Both the position numbers and the translations under genes were made by a program. DNA of 30,820 bases from a virus. The notes below the pieces were generated by a model. The model ran no database searches. It was not told where the DNA came from and saw nothing but the letters and a program-made list of their open reading frames with translations. Shown piece after piece: positions 1,526 through 24,781 of this stretch. The stretch is taken from positions 1 to 30,820 of IMG/VR virus record IMGVR_UViG_3300006071_000059; one strand, 5' to 3'. Each line of letters opens with the position of its first letter. Position 1 is the stretch's first letter.

Positions 1526-1858
1526 TTAAATTTTAAACTTAAACGCTTTTTCAAGTAAAGCAGCTTCTGCATCAGTAGCATTCTCTACCACCACAGTAGC
1601 AGCTTCAGTTACCACATCATTAGCGTTGTCAGCACCTAAAGCATTTACCTTACCTTTAGTAGCAATAGCCACTAAAAAGGCATTTTTTTGAGATTCTAAA
1701 ATGGCTTTACCACTTTTAATCCCTTCTACTACAGACTTTGAATCTGCTTCATAAAACGCCAACCAAGAATTTACAATCTCTTGTTGGGCGTTGGCTCCTT
1801 CAGTTAAGATACTTTGTACCAACTCCGGGTGCGCACTGTTTAATTCTGTTCTTGTCAT
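1526..1858 (-). CDS. Nested scaffold protein from an internal start
   Basis: Inside the protease gene and in the same frame, codon 323 is an ATG at 1858. It begins MTRTELNSAHPELVQSIL and runs to the shared stop, giving 110 residues. It sits exactly where the protease linker ends and the helical Ala/Glu-rich segment begins. The bases just upstream are A-rich (AATTCAAAA), as at other starts in this window. In lambda, the scaffold Nu3 is made from an internal start within gene C in the same way. The role as scaffold is inferred from this layout; the internal start is seen but its use is not proven. Confidence 0.55.
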   Translation of the reverse strand: MTRTELNSAHPELVQSILTEGANAQQEIVNSWLAFYEADSKSVVEGIKSGKAILESQKNAFLVAIATKGKVNALGADNANDVVTEAATVVVENATDAEAALLEKAFKFKI

Positions 1859-2824
1859 TTTTGAATTAGAATTTTGATTAATATTAGTATTCTTTTTTAT
1901 ACTTGTTGTTGTTTCTTGTTTTCTAGTTTTAACAAGAACCTTTTTGATAACTTCTTGTTTAGATGCAATCCCATCGATAAATTTCCCTACGGAATCCTTT
2001 GCAAAAGCATCATGTCCATTATCATAATCAGTTCCTTTTAATATCGGTCTGAATTTTGCTATTGAATCTAAAAACCTTTCGTTGATAGGGTCTAGCAAAT
2101 TATTTACAATCAGTTTATAGTTGTTATTATTCAACGCCTCTTCAATATCCTGATTCTTCTTTGTTGACTTGGTGGCATAAAGTCTAATATACTTTTCTCC
2201 ATCTTCATCCTCTGTATTAGCTGCTCTTCCTTCAAACTGAACCATTGTTCCGCAACTTCCTACATTACTCATTTCGCTTTCGGCACTTATCTCTTCACAA
2301 GCACTTAAAATACCATAACACGCACTACAAGCCATCCCTCCTTTTCTAACCAATCCATAAACAGGTTTGGTTTTTCTGATTTCAGTAATAGCATCAGTCA
2401 TTATTTCGACTGCACTTGTTGAACCACCTCCTGAATTAGCATAAATGATAAAACCTTTGATGTTATCATTCTTTGCAAGGTCAAGCATATTTTCAGAAAG
2501 CTGTGTCATTCCGTAGCTTGAAGCACCACCATCAACTGTAATAACCCCATTCAAGTTAACTATTGCTATTCCTTGAATATCCTCGCTTGTAGGCTCAAAA
2601 TCATCATCGTCGCACTCTACATAATCATCCAAATCGTTATCATCATCATCACATTTAGGACCACTTAAAATAGAGATTGAATTATACTTCTTTTCAGGCA
2701 ATTCTAAAACTTGTCCGTTTTTTGAATTTGCTAATATCTGAATCATAGCAGGTAAAGACTTCGCATCAACGCTCCAAGCACCTATTCCATAAACCTCTCT
2801 TGCTAATCCAAAATTCATACTCAT
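1526..2824 (-). CDS. S49-family prohead protease fused to scaffold
   Basis: This 432-residue protein has the lambda gpC layout. Residues about 84-300 are a ClpP/SppA-type serine protease: GIAIVNLNGVI opens the fold, GMACSACYG carries the nucleophile Ser167, and YATKSTKK carries the likely general base Lys219. The spacing between the two residues is that of the S49 Ser-Lys dyad. A very acidic loop (about residues 59-76) precedes the core. After a Ser/Asn-rich linker (305-322) comes a 110-residue helical Ala/Glu-rich segment that looks like a scaffold. It should process the prohead and remove the scaffold during maturation. The next gene, the decoration protein, starts 12 bases downstream. Upstream is a leader with a 15-bp hairpin that ends 17 bases before the ATG. 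Confidence 0.85.
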   Translation of the reverse strand: MSMNFGLAREVYGIGAWSVDAKSLPAMIQILANSKNGQVLELPEKKYNSISILSGPKCDDDDNDLDDYVECDDDDFEPTSEDIQGIAIVNLNGVITVDGGASSYGMTQLSENMLDLAKNDNIKGFIIYANSGGGSTSAVEIMTDAITEIRKTKPVYGLVRKGGMACSACYGILSACEEISAESEMSNVGSCGTMVQFEGRAANTEDEDGEKYIRLYATKSTKKNQDIEEALNNNNYKLIVNNLLDPINERFLDSIAKFRPILKGTDYDNGHDAFAKDSVGKFIDGIASKQEVIKKVLVKTRKQETTTSIKKNTNINQNSNSKMTRTELNSAHPELVQSILTEGANAQQEIVNSWLAFYEADSKSVVEGIKSGKAILESQKNAFLVAIATKGKVNALGADNANDVVTEAATVVVENATDAEAALLEKAFKFKI

Positions 2825-2841
2825 TTTACTTTTGATTTAAA

Positions 2842-2886
2842 ACACAAAAAGTGTTACCCGCTTTACGCAGATAACACTTTTTGTGT
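2842..2886 (-). terminator. 15-bp hairpin in the protease leader, terminator-like
   Basis: The arms 2842-2856 and 2872-2886 are a perfect 15-bp inverted repeat (ACACAAAAAGTGTTA and its complement) around a 15-base loop. On the minus strand it is followed by GTGTTTTAAATC, a weak U-tract, and ends 17 bases before the protease ATG at 2824. Its place after a promoter and before the gene suggests an attenuator, an RNA-stability element or a translation control hairpin rather than a plain operon end. Confidence 0.6.
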
Positions 2887-2942
2887 ATTTTTTCCTAAAT
2901 TTTGCACCTTTGTCATCACGACAATAGTTTTATAATTCGATA
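2842..2942 (-). ncRNA. Leader RNA A of the capsid operon
   Basis: This gene-free 5' leader lies between the -7 element at 2943-2950 and the protease gene. In order it holds a GAATTA box, a 5-bp hairpin TTGTC-GTGAT-GACAA (2910-2924), an AAAATTTAGG box and the long 15-bp hairpin. The same order, with near-identical spacing (45 against 44 bases from GAATTA to the end of the GG box), occurs at 24571-24654 before the gpW-like/portal operon. Conservation of layout between two places suggests a functional RNA. The nature of the signal is unknown. Confidence 0.55.
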
Positions 2943-2950
2943 CAAATATA
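2943..2950 (-). promoter_or_regulatory. Promoter -7 element for the capsid operon
   Basis: The minus strand reads TATATTTG, matching the Bacteroidota -7 consensus TAnnTTTG, followed by TA as at 24655-24662. No clear -33 TTTG is seen at 19-21 bases upstream, so strength is uncertain and a phage factor could be needed. It lies just after the terminator at 3042-3081, which supports a new transcription unit. Confidence 0.5.
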
Positions 2951-3041
2951 TAAAAAGATTTTAATAAATTACATTTCTGCAATTATTTTTATTTTTTTGA
3001 TGTTTTTATCATTAAAATTGTTTTAATGCTTTACACAAAGA

Positions 3042-3081
3042 AAAAACCCTATTTCTCTGTGTTATCAGGAATAGGGTTTTT
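3042..3081 (-). terminator. Terminator of the replication operon
   Basis: Arms 3042-3053 and 3070-3081 form a perfect 12-bp inverted repeat (AAAAACCCTATT and its complement). On the minus strand the 3' arm runs into a TTTTTTC tract. It lies 39 bases after the stop of the second gpW-like gene, so it should end the long early transcript and insulate the capsid operon. Confidence 0.82.
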
Positions 3082-3119: not shown

Positions 3120-3377
3120 TTATTTTTGTCTTATAGCTCTATTTTCCATTTCATTAATATTTTCTATATAAAAAGCTCTTAATTTTTCAAGACTTTGAAT
3201 ATTATTTACAATACCCGAAACACTTACATAAGTCGTTTCTGCTTTCATTTTACCATCATCTAATCTGTAATGATGTATGTGTTCTGAACCTTCTTGAAAT
3301 GCTTTAAAACATTTTTCAATTTTAGCATCAATTTGTTCTATCTTTTGGATAAAATATTCTACTGTTCTTGTTTCCAT
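3120..3377 (-). CDS. gpW-like protein, second copy
   Basis: This 85-residue protein is clearly related to the 97-residue protein at 24250-24543. The two align without gaps over about 50 residues from SEHIHHYRLDDGKMKAE against SGHLVQYELDDGQMKVR to the C-terminal YI-x-N segment. The motif (an aromatic/charged strand, DDG-x-M-K, then a helix with SLEKLRAFYI) recalls lambda gpW, the small protein that joins head and tail and lies before the portal gene. This copy is not beside the portal. It is the last gene of the replication operon, starting at the stop of the upstream gene, with a terminator after it. It may be a paralogue with a changed role. The gpW assignment rests on motif and on the position of the other copy. 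Confidence 0.5.
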   Translation of the reverse strand: METRTVEYFIQKIEQIDAKIEKCFKAFQEGSEHIHHYRLDDGKMKAETTYVSVSGIVNNIQSLEKLRAFYIENINEMENRAIRQK

Positions 3378-3745
3378 TATAATTCTAATTTTAAGTTTGT
3401 TTTGTTACTTGCATTATGCTTTTGTCTATTCTTAAACTCTAAACTAATCCACGTTTTCAAATCTCTACCATGAGCAACTTTATGTTTTGATTTTGTAAAC
3501 CCATGATGAAAGATAAGTTTTGCTTTTACAAGGTTACTGAATACTGCTCCGAATACTCTTGGCTCTTCTGGAACAACTCCACCTTGTGCAAAGTATGCTT
3601 CTTTCAAATCATCCGAACTGAACCACTTGAATTGTGTTTTAACCCATTGTTCAGCAAATGCAAATATCTTATTGAAGTTATGCTTGTTTCCGTACATTAC
3701 GCTTTCAATAGCCTCTTCCTTTGATTGAATTTCTTTTGATTCCAT
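3377..3745 (-). CDS. Unknown 122-residue protein, possible winged helix
   Basis: No family is recognised with confidence. The core (residues about 25-105) is compact and mixed: FAEQWVKTQFKWFSSDDLKE, then an EEPRVFGAVFSNLVKAKLI helix followed by a GFTKSKHKVAHGR turn and a final strand. Helix-helix-strand-turn-strand order with basic residues in the turn suggests a winged-helix DNA-binding fold, as in some phage proteins of replication operons. The C-terminal tail is basic and Asn-rich. It overlaps the next gene by one base and follows a small membrane protein by two bases, so it is translated as part of the recombination end of the operon. Function is not assigned. Confidence 0.7.
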   Translation of the reverse strand: MESKEIQSKEEAIESVMYGNKHNFNKIFAFAEQWVKTQFKWFSSDDLKEAYFAQGGVVPEEPRVFGAVFSNLVKAKLIFHHGFTKSKHKVAHGRDLKTWISLEFKNRQKHNASNKTNLKLEL

Positions 3746-10275: not shown

Positions 10276-10887
10276 CTATTTAAAAAATAAGTCCATTTCC
10301 TTCTGTTCGTTTTTTACCCTACCATATATTCTAAAAGTCAAAACATTTTCTCCAAAATTAAAGTAATCCAAGTTCATATCAAAACCATATTTAGTGCTAT
10401 CATCGTATATAGCGTTCAAAGTAATAATTTCATTCTTTCTTTTTTTAGAATTTTCTACTTGTTTTGGTGTTGGTGTTTTTAAAATGTCGTGCATCAATTT
10501 TCTCCAAAAAAATGCTCTACCATCTAAATCAATATCTTTTGATGCTGAAACCTCAATCTCTACATTAATCTTTTCCATTGGAGGAAGATACTTTATTTTA
10601 TCTCTTAAAAAGATTTTACAACTTTGAATTATCTTAGTTGTAATGTGATAAGACAAAGTATTATTTACAAAAAGATTTGAAGTTAAATAATACTTCGTGA
10701 AAACATCTTCTCCTTTCAACTTACTTTCTTTAGAGTTTTTAATTTGATAATAGGTAGGAGCGTTTTCAATAACAATCTCTTTTATCAAAATCAAATTAGA
10801 CTTTTTAACCTTTCTTGAAAATCTCAAAACTTGGTCTTTTTGACAATCAGTTAATTTTGAAATTACATCGTTTAATTCGTTATTCAT
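10276..10887 (-). CDS. RusA-like resolvase candidate
   Basis: This 203-residue protein has a C-terminal half that resembles the RusA Holliday junction resolvase: a strand KINVEIEVSASKDIDLDG giving a D-x-D pair, then the helix FFWRKLMHDILK, then NAIYDDSTKYGFDMNLDYF with further acidic residues and a final strand VLTFRIYGRV. RusA uses conserved aspartates placed in this way to cut four-way junctions. RusA itself is about 120 residues; here about 85 extra residues form an N-terminal domain of unknown type (QKDQVLRFSRKVKKSNLILI). The setting in a recombination operon fits. The match is weak by eye, so an unrelated fold is possible. Confidence 0.45.
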   Translation of the reverse strand: MNNELNDVISKLTDCQKDQVLRFSRKVKKSNLILIKEIVIENAPTYYQIKNSKESKLKGEDVFTKYYLTSNLFVNNTLSYHITTKIIQSCKIFLRDKIKYLPPMEKINVEIEVSASKDIDLDGRAFFWRKLMHDILKTPTPKQVENSKKRKNEIITLNAIYDDSTKYGFDMNLDYFNFGENVLTFRIYGRVKNEQKEMDLFFK

Positions 10888-11105
10888 AACACTATCTCTT
10901 TATAGTTAATTTTGCTTTCTAATATAATCTCTCGCCTCTTATGAATGAAACGATAAACGTCAATCATGTTTTGTATCGTGTAAAATGGCAGAAACCCTAT
11001 TGATACCTTTGGATTAATATTCAAAACCTTAATAGCGTAATCAAATTGCCTACATTTTATATTAAGCATTTCTGAAATATCCCTTCTTGTAAAGTATTTA
11101 TTCAT
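10884..11105 (-). CDS. Small helix-turn-helix protein, MerR/excisionase-like
   Basis: This 73-residue protein starts MNKYFTRRDISEMLNIKCRQ, the classic start of a MerR/excisionase-type winged helix: an aromatic, R-R-D-I-S-x-M-L-N-I recognition helix region, followed by DYAIKVLNINP and a hydrophobic wing GFLPFYTIQNMIDVYRFI. The C-terminus is basic. It overlaps the RusA-like gene by 4 bases (ATGA) and the upstream gene by one base. It could regulate the operon or help recombination. No partner integrase is visible, so an excisionase role is not supported. Confidence 0.6.
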   Translation of the reverse strand: MNKYFTRRDISEMLNIKCRQFDYAIKVLNINPKVSIGFLPFYTIQNMIDVYRFIHKRREIILESKINYKEIVL

Positions 11106-11350
11106 TACATTTTGCTTGTTAAATCATTCCAATAGTACAACTGCGTTTTATCCAATGCCTCTTGAATATCATCATGCATAATCTCCTTCGCAAAGGTTTT
11201 TAACTTACCATGAATTGAAACTTGAATCTTCCATTTTTTAGTTCCTAAAACCGATATAGGATAGATCTTGATTTCATTTTGGAGAAGCAACTTGAATTGA
11301 TCCGCTGTCAACTTATTTTGAAATGAACTCGATTTCTTTTTTGAGGACAT
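11105..11350 (-). CDS. Unknown 81-residue protein
   Basis: No family is recognised. A basic Ser/Lys-rich N-terminus (MSSKKKSSSFQNK) is followed by one helix (TADQFKLLLQNEIK) and a strand-rich core with TKKWKIQVSIHGKLKTFAKE, then a final helix. It overlaps the upstream coiled-coil gene by 38 bases, so M1 at 11350 may be too far upstream, but no later in-frame Met lies near the N-terminus. It overlaps the HTH gene downstream by one base. The beta hairpin and basic charge would suit nucleic-acid binding, but this is a guess. Confidence 0.55.
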   Translation of the reverse strand: MSSKKKSSSFQNKLTADQFKLLLQNEIKIYPISVLGTKKWKIQVSIHGKLKTFAKEIMHDDIQEALDKTQLYYWNDLTSKM

Positions 11351-22101: not shown

Positions 22102-22590
22102 TTAGTTGTAAACTCGGATTTCTAATGTAGTATTATCTAATACACCATCTATAGTTGCCCCTGAATTTCTTGTGATTATTTGGGCAGATGAAACACCAAT
22201 AATAGCTGCATAAATTGTTCTTCCATTATTATCAAAACTATTAATTAAAATAGTTGATTTATTATTTATTAAAACATTACTTGAAAATGATATAGTATAT
22301 ATACCAACAGAAGCTCTATTAATATTACAAGTTGCTTCTAATGTATTTTCTAATTCTATTTTAGTAGGTGCGCTCGTACCTGTTTGAGTTAACAATGCTG
22401 AATAAACCTTATATGGTCTTTTATCCCAACTTATACAAATCCAATTAGAATCACTACTACTTGGCTCTGAATTAATCCCTGTAGTATTCTGCCAATCTAA
22501 ACCATTATGCGTAACAATAGCGTTAATTTTATAACGTCGTTTCGCATCCCAAGTATTATTACTATTTACGAGTTTTTGTTGTGTTTTCAT
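22102..22590 (-). CDS. Carbohydrate-binding-like adsorption protein
   Basis: This 162-residue protein has an N-terminal CBM5/12-like segment: TWDAKRRYKINAIVTHNGLD, then WQNTTGINSEPSSSDSNW (about residues 13-50). The Trp, Tyr, Gly-x-x-Trp and final Trp are spaced as in chitin-binding modules used on phage fibres. The C-terminal half is a beta-rich domain (GIYTISFSSNVLINNKSTIL, TRNSGATIDGVLDNTTLEIR). It likely binds glycans on the host and joins the BppU-like and fibre proteins. Its start overlaps the end of the portal gene by 29 bases. The second Met choice is not obvious, so the start is somewhat uncertain. Confidence 0.6.
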   Translation of the reverse strand: MKTQQKLVNSNNTWDAKRRYKINAIVTHNGLDWQNTTGINSEPSSSDSNWICISWDKRPYKVYSALLTQTGTSAPTKIELENTLEATCNINRASVGIYTISFSSNVLINNKSTILINSFDNNGRTIYAAIIGVSSAQIITRNSGATIDGVLDNTTLEIRVYN

Positions 22591-24241
22591 TTGGTTTTGA
22601 ATTTGAATTATTATTCGGTGCCATTGCTTGTTTTGGTAAATTGCTTACCGCTAATTGGTCAGGTGGTATCAATTTATTCTCTTCTTGACTTTTTAAGAAG
22701 TTTTCACTCCATTCGCCTGTTCCAAGTTGCTCCGTTGCTTGTTCTCTTGAAATAAGTGGTATCTCCCCATTTACCCCTAACATTTCTCTAATCGCTTTAA
22801 TCTCTTTTAAGGGGTCGATATGTGGCATATTTTTACCCGTAAATCGACATTGAGTATAACTTTCTGTTACCATCGGATTATCAATATTCTCAATGTAACC
22901 TTTAGCAACAATCTTTTTAGTCAATATTTGATGCTCCAACCATAATTTGTAAATAGGAACATAGAATTGATTTGCAAAGTTTTGTCTGTCAATAGAGATA
23001 AAGTACCCAAAACTATTTATCGCTGCTCTCGAAGCAGAATAATTGCTATTGAATTGTTGTTTTGCTACTTCGGGAGGAACATTAACACCACTAGACATAG
23101 AATCAAATACCGTATCATAAAATTGAGCAAAGTCAGTTTCTATACTGCTCTCAAATGCTTTCAAAGATGAACCTTGTGTCATATTGAAAGTTTGTCCTCC
23201 CGTAGTTTGTTGAATTTTAACCGCTAATCCATCGGTCAAAACCCTGTCTTGTCCTTCCTCATAAACTGGTGTTACAGATTCCCCACGTCTTTGTTTTATG
23301 ATTCTTTCAGTTGGACTTTCCCCCGTAGAAAATTCCTCATGCTCAATAGCGTAAACAATTTTTGCTCCTTGCTCTGCTTTTGTAACCGCTGCCTCAATGT
23401 ATCTATCTAGCTTGTTAATCTTCTCTAAAGATTGGCTCATTGAAGGGACTGCTCTCAAATGGTCAGGACTTAATTTATCCCCTGAAACTAACCAAGCTAA
23501 TGTCTTACCCGAATTTTCCCCAACAGCAGCAATACGCTCATAAGTATCAGGACCATCTTTGTGTCGTGTTCTTACATAAAACGCAACTATCTTTCCTGTT
23601 GTATCAACCTCAACACCTTGCTGAATGAAATTACCTATTTTAGTAGCATTCTCCCACTGATTATTATCGTAGTTTGGATTTTCAATAAATTCCCCTGAAA
23701 TAAATTGTACTGTTGGTCCTGAATCATCAAAACGTACTATAAGCAAATTATCCCCTCCTAAAAAAGCACCTTTATCAAAGTCTTGTGCTAATTCGTGAAG
23801 AGATTTTTGTTTAAGGTAATCCGCTTGTTTTGAGTTCGCCCAAATAGAGAAACGTTGTTCAACTAGCTTTTGGAAATTAGTGTATTCAGCATCAGTATTA
23901 TTAATTCCCTCCGAATTTAAAACTACTCTATTTGGCTCGGATTGTAGCTTTAATCCAGAACCTATTTTCCAATAGAAGTATTTAGAAGCTATCGTTTTGA
24001 AAGTATCTACTTTGGTATATGCATCGTAGGAGCGTATTCTCAAACGCAAATAGTCAGGAACACCTCTGATAATTGTACCAAGCTCTCCTAAATTCTTTTC
24101 TCCATCCCATTTTTTATTTAGGATTGGGTATGTATGTCCATAAACGATGTTGTCCTGATAAGATAAACTTCTTGGTTGCATCGAAGGAAGCGTACTACTT
24201 TCTTGCGTTTTTTCAAAAAAACTATATCCAAATATTTTCAT
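22562..24241 (-). CDS. Portal protein, lambda gpB type
   Basis: This 559-residue protein matches the lambda-type portal family: an N-terminal LRLRIRSYDAYTK segment, the GAFLGGDNLLIVRF strand region, the NSNYSASRAAINSFGYFI segment (lambda has a similar N-Y-S-S-x-R-A) and GKNMPHIDPLKEIKAIREML, close to the H-I-D-P-x-K-E-x-x-A motif of lambda portals. The C-terminal tail is Asn/Pro-rich and probably disordered. It forms the dodecameric ring through which DNA enters and leaves the head. The gpW-like gene lies 8 bases upstream. In lambda the portal is followed by the protease; here fibre genes follow instead. Confidence 0.9.
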   Translation of the reverse strand: MKIFGYSFFEKTQESSTLPSMQPRSLSYQDNIVYGHTYPILNKKWDGEKNLGELGTIIRGVPDYLRLRIRSYDAYTKVDTFKTIASKYFYWKIGSGLKLQSEPNRVVLNSEGINNTDAEYTNFQKLVEQRFSIWANSKQADYLKQKSLHELAQDFDKGAFLGGDNLLIVRFDDSGPTVQFISGEFIENPNYDNNQWENATKIGNFIQQGVEVDTTGKIVAFYVRTRHKDGPDTYERIAAVGENSGKTLAWLVSGDKLSPDHLRAVPSMSQSLEKINKLDRYIEAAVTKAEQGAKIVYAIEHEEFSTGESPTERIIKQRRGESVTPVYEEGQDRVLTDGLAVKIQQTTGGQTFNMTQGSSLKAFESSIETDFAQFYDTVFDSMSSGVNVPPEVAKQQFNSNYSASRAAINSFGYFISIDRQNFANQFYVPIYKLWLEHQILTKKIVAKGYIENIDNPMVTESYTQCRFTGKNMPHIDPLKEIKAIREMLGVNGEIPLISREQATEQLGTGEWSENFLKSQEENKLIPPDQLAVSNLPKQAMAPNNNSNSKPNENTTKTRK

Positions 24242-24543: not shown

Positions 24544-24570
24544 ATCAATTCGTTTTAGCGTTAAAACAAA

Positions 24571-24606
24571 TAAAGGAACACCTACCCAAAAGCAAGTGTT
24601 CCTTTA
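24571..24606 (-). terminator. 11-bp hairpin in leader B, terminator-like
   Basis: Arms 24571-24581 and 24596-24606 are a perfect 11-bp inverted repeat (TAAAGGAACAC and complement) around a 14-base loop. The minus strand continues CCTTTATTTGTTTTAAC, a broken U-tract. It ends 27 bases before the gpW-like ATG. Like the matching hairpin at 2842-2886 it lies between promoter and first gene, so it may act as an attenuator. Confidence 0.6.
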
Positions 24607-24654
24607 CCCAAATTTTTGTTCGATGTTCTCACAACATTGAATTTTAATTCTCTA
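24571..24654 (-). ncRNA. Leader RNA B of the portal-fibre-lysis operon
   Basis: After the -7 element at 24655-24662 the minus strand has GAATTA, a 5-bp hairpin ATGTT-GTGAG-AACAT (24623-24637), an AAAAATTTGGG box and the 11-bp hairpin. Leader A at 2842-2942 has the same elements at the same spacing within one base. The stems differ in sequence but both pair, which is the pattern expected from selection on RNA structure. The role may be processive antitermination or attenuation of late genes. Confidence 0.55.
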
Positions 24655-24681
24655 CAAATATATATAATTTTTATTTACAAA
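24655..24681 (-). promoter_or_regulatory. Promoter of the portal-fibre-lysis operon
   Basis: The minus strand has a -7 TATATTTG (24655-24662) followed by TA. A TTTG (24678-24681), within the T tract of the preceding terminator, could serve as -33, but the spacer is 15 bases instead of the usual 19-21. The element and following bases are shared with the capsid operon promoter. Confidence 0.5.
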
Positions 24682-24710
24682 AAAGCCACTTGAATAAATC
24701 AAATGGCTTT
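24679..24710 (-). terminator. Strong terminator upstream of the portal operon
   Basis: AAAGCCACTTGA (24682-24693) pairs with TCAAATGGCTTT (24699-24710) over 12 positions with one G-U-type mismatch and a 5-base loop. A 6-base T tract follows on the minus strand. It separates the portal operon from anything started at 24751-24758 or read through from the terminase side. Confidence 0.82.
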
Positions 24711-24750
24711 CAGCAGAAAAACAAACAAACAAACATGAAAATAAGTGCTA

Positions 24751-24758
24751 CAAATATA
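24751..24758 (-). promoter_or_regulatory. Possible -7 element between two terminators
   Basis: The minus strand reads TATATTTG. It lies between the terminators at 24782-24811 and 24679-24710. A transcript from here would be about 65 bases and hold no gene. No -33 element is clear, so this may be chance in AT-rich DNA. Confidence 0.35.
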
Positions 24759-24781
24759 TCATTAATTTGTTAATAACATAA

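Follow-up and report, generated by a model that had tools for sequence, protein, structure and literature searches.

A conserved RNA hairpin in the leaders of phage structural operons: a possible gate on a leader terminator

The DNA analysed here (the window, 30,820 nucleotides or 30.8 kb in full) is a phage record, probably a fragment, whose main genes all lie on the minus strand. This phage is related to FL-1 and FCV-1, two cultured phages of Flavobacterium. Two of its operons are considered here (Table 1). One begins with the head maturation protease gene and continues with the capsid, and the other begins with a small gene in the gpW position that is followed by the portal gene. Judging by gene content only, both would be late operons. 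The label "gpW", taken from an earlier note on this DNA, is a fair one: the protein is predicted to fold as alpha-beta-beta-alpha, with a weak fold match to lambda gpW, and its gene directly precedes that of the portal. A divergent second copy of phrog_5196 (29% identity; 3120-3377, minus strand) lies directly upstream of leader A.

The earlier note had placed a leader RNA before each of these operons, and both leaders are present there, read on the minus strand. In Flavobacterium the -7 box TAnnTTTG lies at -12 to -5, as mapped in F. psychrophilum (PMC9723704), and the G of GAATTA is therefore the predicted +1 in both leaders; GAATTA forms the extreme 5′ end of both predicted RNAs. Each leader then has a short hairpin (hairpin 1) and a longer, terminator-like one (hairpin 2). 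The latter had been described as perfect stems of 15 and 11 bp, but folding gives 20 pairs in leader A and 19 in leader B when G.U pairs are counted. The U-rich tract UUUUUGUGUUUU of leader A overlaps the lower stem of hairpin 2 and its tail. Independent assemblies (L003-L005, L009) hold identical copies, which disfavours an assembly artefact.

Table 1 Features of the two leaders and neighbouring genes in the window
Feature	Position	Strand	Assignment or support
Head maturation protease, first gene of protease-capsid operon	1526..2824	-	phrog_53, E=3.4e-51
Protease ATG after leader A	2824	-	
Leader A transcript, about 114 nt, before head maturation protease gene	2825..2938	-	
Leader A hairpin 2, terminator-like, 20 pairs, -29 kcal/mol	2842..2886	-	
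Leader A segment AAAATTTAGG	2903-2894	-	
Leader A hairpin 1, TTGTC GTGAT GACAA, starts +15	2910..2924	-	R1 match 2896-2950, 63.5 bits; covariation
Leader A GAATTA	2938-2933	-	
Leader A promoter -7 box TATATTTG (TAnnTTTG); predicted +1 at 2938	2943..2950	-	
Small basic winged-helix-like protein (predicted), pI 9.6	3377..3745	-	phrog_12515
Portal protein	22562..24241	-	phrog_21
gpW-position protein, 97 aa, predicted helix - beta hairpin - helix	24250..24543	-	phrog_5196
gpW-position ATG after leader B	24543	-	
Leader B transcript, about 107 nt, before gpW-position gene and portal	24544..24650	-	
Leader B hairpin 2, terminator-like, 15-bp core, -24 kcal/mol, then AUUUGUUUUAA	24572..24605	-	
Leader B segment AAAATTTGGG	24616-24607	-	
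Leader B hairpin 1, ATGTT GTGAG AACAT, starts +14	24623..24637	-	R1 match 24609-24662, 66.7 bits; covariation
Leader B GAATTA	24650-24645	-	
Leader B promoter -7 box TATATTTG; predicted +1 at 24650	24655..24662	-	

We built a covariance model, R1, from an alignment (A1) of 28 sequences that include both window sites. When the window was searched with R1, only these two sites matched, and IMG/VR relatives by portal and protease carry the same layout at the same genes. The likeness of the leaders, which the earlier note had claimed, is thus real and beyond chance. That note had also proposed a covariance-model search of related phages, which indeed yielded homologous leaders with covarying stems before gpW and protease genes. 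R1 scores in related phages range from 44 to 71 bits, the 28 training sequences matching by construction. Covariance searches and pattern scans together gave about 34 distinct leaders in the window's phage group (group 1), namely 32 sites and two further ones; 12 precede the protease gene and 22 the gpW-position or portal gene. All 32 sites precede one of these two operons.

The core shared by these leaders is a weak 5′-proximal hairpin, AAUGUUGUGA(N)AACAUCG, whose tetra- or pentaloop is of GNRA type. It starts between +5 and +19 from the predicted transcription start, close to the 5′ end in every case, and the distance from the -7 box to the first ATG is 113-134 nt in group 1. Two details that the earlier note had taken for shared parts did not hold up. 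An AAAATTT(A/G)GG box is unconserved in the relatives (alignments A1 and A2) and occurs in the window at chance-level frequency, without enrichment, and the exact spacing from GAATTA to the GG of this box is likewise unconserved. A two-codon uORF (ATG TTG TGA), noticed by eye inside the hairpin, was rejected, as it fails in window leader A, L010 and FCV-1.

Searches of whole records found exactly two strong sites, one per operon, in each of the window, FL-1 (53 kb) and two further genomes (G006, 48 kb; G012, 55 kb), and the second sites in G006 and FL-1 were new to the R1 model. FCV-1 and FCOV-F7 have one strong site each, before the protease gene. Since FCV-1 and the L064 phage carry the cassette before the protease and none before gpW, the cassette is held per operon. 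The model search found no element in Cellulophaga phi38:2, F. psychrophilum 2A, laban6-1 or Porphyromonas phage026a, and a blastn search of INPHARED with a consensus-like leader gave weak, chance-level matches only.

Some neighbouring features are worth recording. In six of the 32 group-1 sites (L011, L013, L014, L015, L021 and L047, the last being FL-1 10574-11284), the leader is separated from the gpW-position gene by an inserted gene for a GIY-YIG homing endonuclease (phrog_314), and the ATG of this inserted gene keeps the distance that is usual for the leaders. Immediately upstream of leader B (24690-24762, minus strand), and at 18 other W-type loci, there is a second promoter with a U-rich transcript of about 70 nt, of consensus CCUUAUUC...UUGUUUUUUGUUUUU, and its own terminator, whose stem varies but still pairs. 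The transcript is possibly a phage small RNA. Upstream of leader A (3029-3081, minus strand) and in L008 and L055 there is a terminator-like hairpin, and a similar loop (CCTGATAACACAGAG or variants) is kept in relatives.

The earlier note had argued that the two stems differ yet pair, as expected if RNA structure is selected, and a wider alignment bears this out. In alignment A2, which comprises 38 distinct sequences, 97.8% of pair cells are standard (97-98% across analyses). Two-sided compensatory changes occur in four of the six stem pairs; the changed cells are few (six), because the core is so highly conserved. None of 500 shuffled alignments reached any of the measures, although shuffling ignores relatedness, and sliding the partners by 1-3 columns destroyed the signal. 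The loop is GTGA, GTGAN or GGGA in nearly all leaders and TTGA in the FL-1 W-type leader, so that the spacing of the arms varies by one base. In essentially all sites the asymmetric GTGA centre points the same way. In the window itself the half-sites are TTGTC/GACAA at one operon and ATGTT/AACAT at the other, with pairing kept in both. Taken together, the variable spacing, the single orientation and the differing but pairing stems disfavour a palindromic DNA operator, and the sequence evidence supports selection that would act on hairpin 1 at the RNA level. In isolation hairpin 1 is weak (median -1.75 kcal/mol). Its upkeep is therefore better explained by conserved recognition than by stability.

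Hairpin 2 is found in most group-1 leaders as a stem of 12-21 pairs plus a U-rich tail, at about -13 to -33 kcal/mol. A stem-loop with U-tract between promoter and first gene, the arrangement of an intrinsic attenuator, is thus present in the window's group, and it is absent from many leaders of other groups. We applied fixed rules to 49 promoters preceding protease or gpW genes. Hairpin 1 and the terminator occurred together in 23 and were both absent in 21, while five had the hairpin only and none the terminator only (Fisher p = 3e-9, uncorrected for relatedness). In the five hairpin-only cases, either a stem with U-tract is still predicted, mostly weaker or bulged, or the script misplaced the promoter. 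Where hairpin 1 is missing, the promoter lies just 25-36 nt before the same gene. The co-occurrences are not independent, since the gpW cassette requires essentially one gain on the portal tree (a further change there comes from an artefactual label), and only one of the four changes needed on the protease tree is forced by starred branches.

Two further properties of the terminators were noticed. G.U pairs are enriched in the leader terminators, at 28% versus 10% in other terminators (positions 2-8), in a set whose related sequences are not independent. They lie 3-5 bp below the loop, often as U.G beside C-G, and protease-type leaders have a CUGC/GCGG top. An intrinsic terminator also occurs inside the structural or tail operon, where the following gene has no TAnnTTTG box in front of it, at FL-1 39025, at FCV-1 18027 and in six further genomes (G012, G001, G024, G013, G015, G017). 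We had considered such tail-operon terminators as support for processive antitermination and rejected them, as they are equally present in phages without hairpin 1.

Pattern scans revealed about 35 further leaders in phages outside group 1, where they precede portal, virion-structural or adjacent operons. The group-2 carriers have different portal proteins and few genes in common with the window group, and phages sharing the element share almost no proteins. The core lies before portal genes in L049 (phrog_12) and, by weak portal matches, in L135 and L137, and before a virion structural protein gene (phrog_7231) in L139 and L142. In L140 it precedes an operon starting with another virion structural protein (phrog_8510), and the first protein is otherwise unassigned in leaders of this type. 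A large related set of group-2 phages has hairpin 1 about 5 nt before the portal ATG, without a terminator. Four genomes have two sites each (G022, G042, G044 and G045). One group-2 leader, G042a, repeats the window's arrangement of hairpin, terminator and ATG exactly, while only the hairpin is present in what appear to be its counterparts in G022, G044 and G045. Four pattern matches (L050, L068, L144 and L145) were set aside as chance, because they resemble coding sequence and the leader layout is missing.

A chromosomal counterpart of the element in hosts was also sought and rejected. The exact hairpin pattern had no match in 84,980 bacterial and archaeal genomes, and among 398 genomes of one order the sole match was a phage contig within a MAG, under strict filters that may lose weak matches. 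Rfam 15 has no family matching above the curated threshold or at E <= 1. In a partial literature search, we found no described element of this kind and no transcriptome of infected cells, and the FL-1 genome paper (PMC5465603) is silent on the element. The earlier note, too, knew of no element with this layout.

We compared gene presence and absence across the phages for a protein that might read hairpin 1. No protein common to all carriers was found, in a comparison that may miss very small ORFs. The best match among group-1 phages is phrog_12515, present in 10 of 12 carriers and one of five non-carriers. In several genomes its gene lies a short way upstream of the protease leader, and its predicted structure is winged-helix-like, with weak PDB matches that are not diagnostic. 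Most group-2 carriers, some of them fragments, lack this protein, and it is therefore no more than a candidate partner. The near-identical core in phages with almost no common proteins points to a shared, perhaps host-encoded, reader, and a host-encoded one would explain how unrelated phages come to have that core.

Several known systems resemble parts of this arrangement. Like lambdoid N/nut, the element is a small hairpin near the promoter, with a tetra- or pentaloop of GNRA type; it precedes intrinsic terminators and comes in two copies before two operons. A loop of this type, as in boxB, is present in nearly all leaders. However, the operons are structural rather than early, the stem is AU-rich, the terminator lies in the same leader and no N-like protein was identified. 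Alignments A1 and A2 also show no conserved boxA-like segment outside the promoter and the hairpin. The put sites of HK022 (putL and putR) likewise come as two copies per genome downstream of promoters, with two hairpins within the first 70-100 nt and no partner protein among the genes common to carriers. Put is a sequence-specific RNA of about 70 nt with two stem-loops, and it serves early operons (PMC9378689). By contrast, only hairpin 1 is conserved in our leaders; hairpin 2 is unconserved in sequence, terminator-like and sometimes missing, and the operons are structural.

The lambda Q system (pR′, a promoter-proximal pause and the terminator tR′) also combines a promoter, a short leader and a terminator before late genes, with control by read-through. 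According to PMC6606751, Q works via a promoter-located DNA site together with a pause that depends on sigma. Unlike such a DNA-bound factor at fixed promoter spacing, the conserved part of our leaders is a transcribed hairpin at variable distance from the promoter, and its covariation points to RNA. Attenuators of the riboswitch or leader-peptide type share the terminator before the coding region, but consistent antiterminator pairing and a conserved leader ORF were not seen here. Since boxA and a second conserved stem were looked for and are lacking, we file the element as a new RNA family and a new form of phage leader control, not as nut or put.

Our preferred reading, held tentatively and with nearly even confidence, is that leaders A and B represent two copies of one modular regulatory RNA at the 5′ end of structural operons, acting as a boxB- or put-like gate on the leader terminator. 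Transcription would start at the host-type TAnnTTTG promoter, and the nascent RNA would first expose the weak hairpin with its GNRA-type loop. A phage-encoded protein, a host factor or RNA polymerase itself may recognize this hairpin as a boxB/nut or put site, and the elongation complex would thereby be converted so as to pass that leader's own intrinsic terminator. If the hairpin is not recognized, transcription would stop after about 70-100 nt, leaving the protease-capsid and gpW-portal operons off. Termination by hairpin 2, its suppression by hairpin 1, and the identity and timing of the factor are what we infer. Hairpin 1 is weak but highly conserved in sequence, as an RNA recognized by protein should be, and when phage N proteins bind boxB, the fold they recognize is a GNRA-type tetra- or pentaloop (PMC12550061). 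We also considered, and rejected, a switch formed by the RNA by itself: we sought alternative antiterminator pairing in the leaders, and the 5′ arms of the terminators pair with no consistent leader segment, which disfavours it. The earlier note had suggested a late-gene attenuator or antitermination signal, and the anatomy and the hairpin-terminator co-occurrence fit this suggestion, although no partner protein was identified.

What speaks against gating is that in many leaders of other groups the hairpin lies about 5 nt before the ATG and there is no terminator, so that read-through of a leader terminator cannot be its sole role. A hairpin useful without a terminator would have a processive antitermination or a post-transcriptional role. 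For the former, hairpin 1 might be a stand-alone processive antitermination RNA, read by a host factor or RNA polymerase and shared by unrelated virulent Bacteroidota phages, and the leader terminator would be an optional addition turning it into a late-gene switch; we regard this as a possibility of distinctly minor weight. The main rival to gating is a post-transcriptional one, which we think rather unlikely, whereby a protein-bound 5′-terminal hairpin alters the stability or translation of late mRNA, and hairpin 2 mainly protects or spaces the leader. The invariably 5′-proximal position of hairpin 1 suits this idea, as do the many group-2 operons without a terminator. Yet so weak a hairpin would be a poor stabilizer alone, a distance to the start codon that ranges from about 5 to more than 80 nt is odd for a translational operator, and hairpin 2 not only has a terminator's stem and U-tract but also comes and goes with hairpin 1 in group 1.

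It is improbable that the terminated leader is itself the product, a small RNA of 70-100 nt serving as decoy or regulator, with partial read-through giving rise to the structural mRNA. A promoter, the conserved hairpin and a terminator do make up a complete small-RNA unit, and 19 W-type loci have another short terminated unit, with a promoter of its own, immediately upstream, but the group-2 leaders without a terminator would yield no small RNA, and the element fronts structural or adjacent operons and does not stand by itself. We give equally little credence to hairpin 1 as a DNA operator, a palindrome ATGTT-N4/5-AACAT bound by a regulator just downstream of the promoter. The palindromic sequence near a promoter and the weakness of the RNA hairpin would favour an operator. 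However, the half-site gap is 4 or 5 bp, the distance to the promoter varies, and neither the fixed orientation of the GTGA centre nor the differing, still-pairing half-sites of one genome are as an operator would have them. Finally, the AT-rich genome and the chance-level AAAATTTRGG box could suggest two leaders alike by chance, each with an ordinary terminator. This explanation is refuted by R1/R2 matches of up to 70 bits at orthologous positions and in unrelated phages, two per genome.

Our partial literature search found nothing on late-gene timing in Bacteroidota phages and no described phage antitermination signal for the phylum. This timing is now directly testable, because the element is a defined, covarying RNA, usually in two copies per genome, and occurs in the cultured phages FL-1 and FCV-1. 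As it marks the start of structural operons, it would also help to annotate phage contigs. If hairpin 1 does act as a stand-alone antitermination RNA, it would be a counterpart of put and nut for the Bacteroidota.
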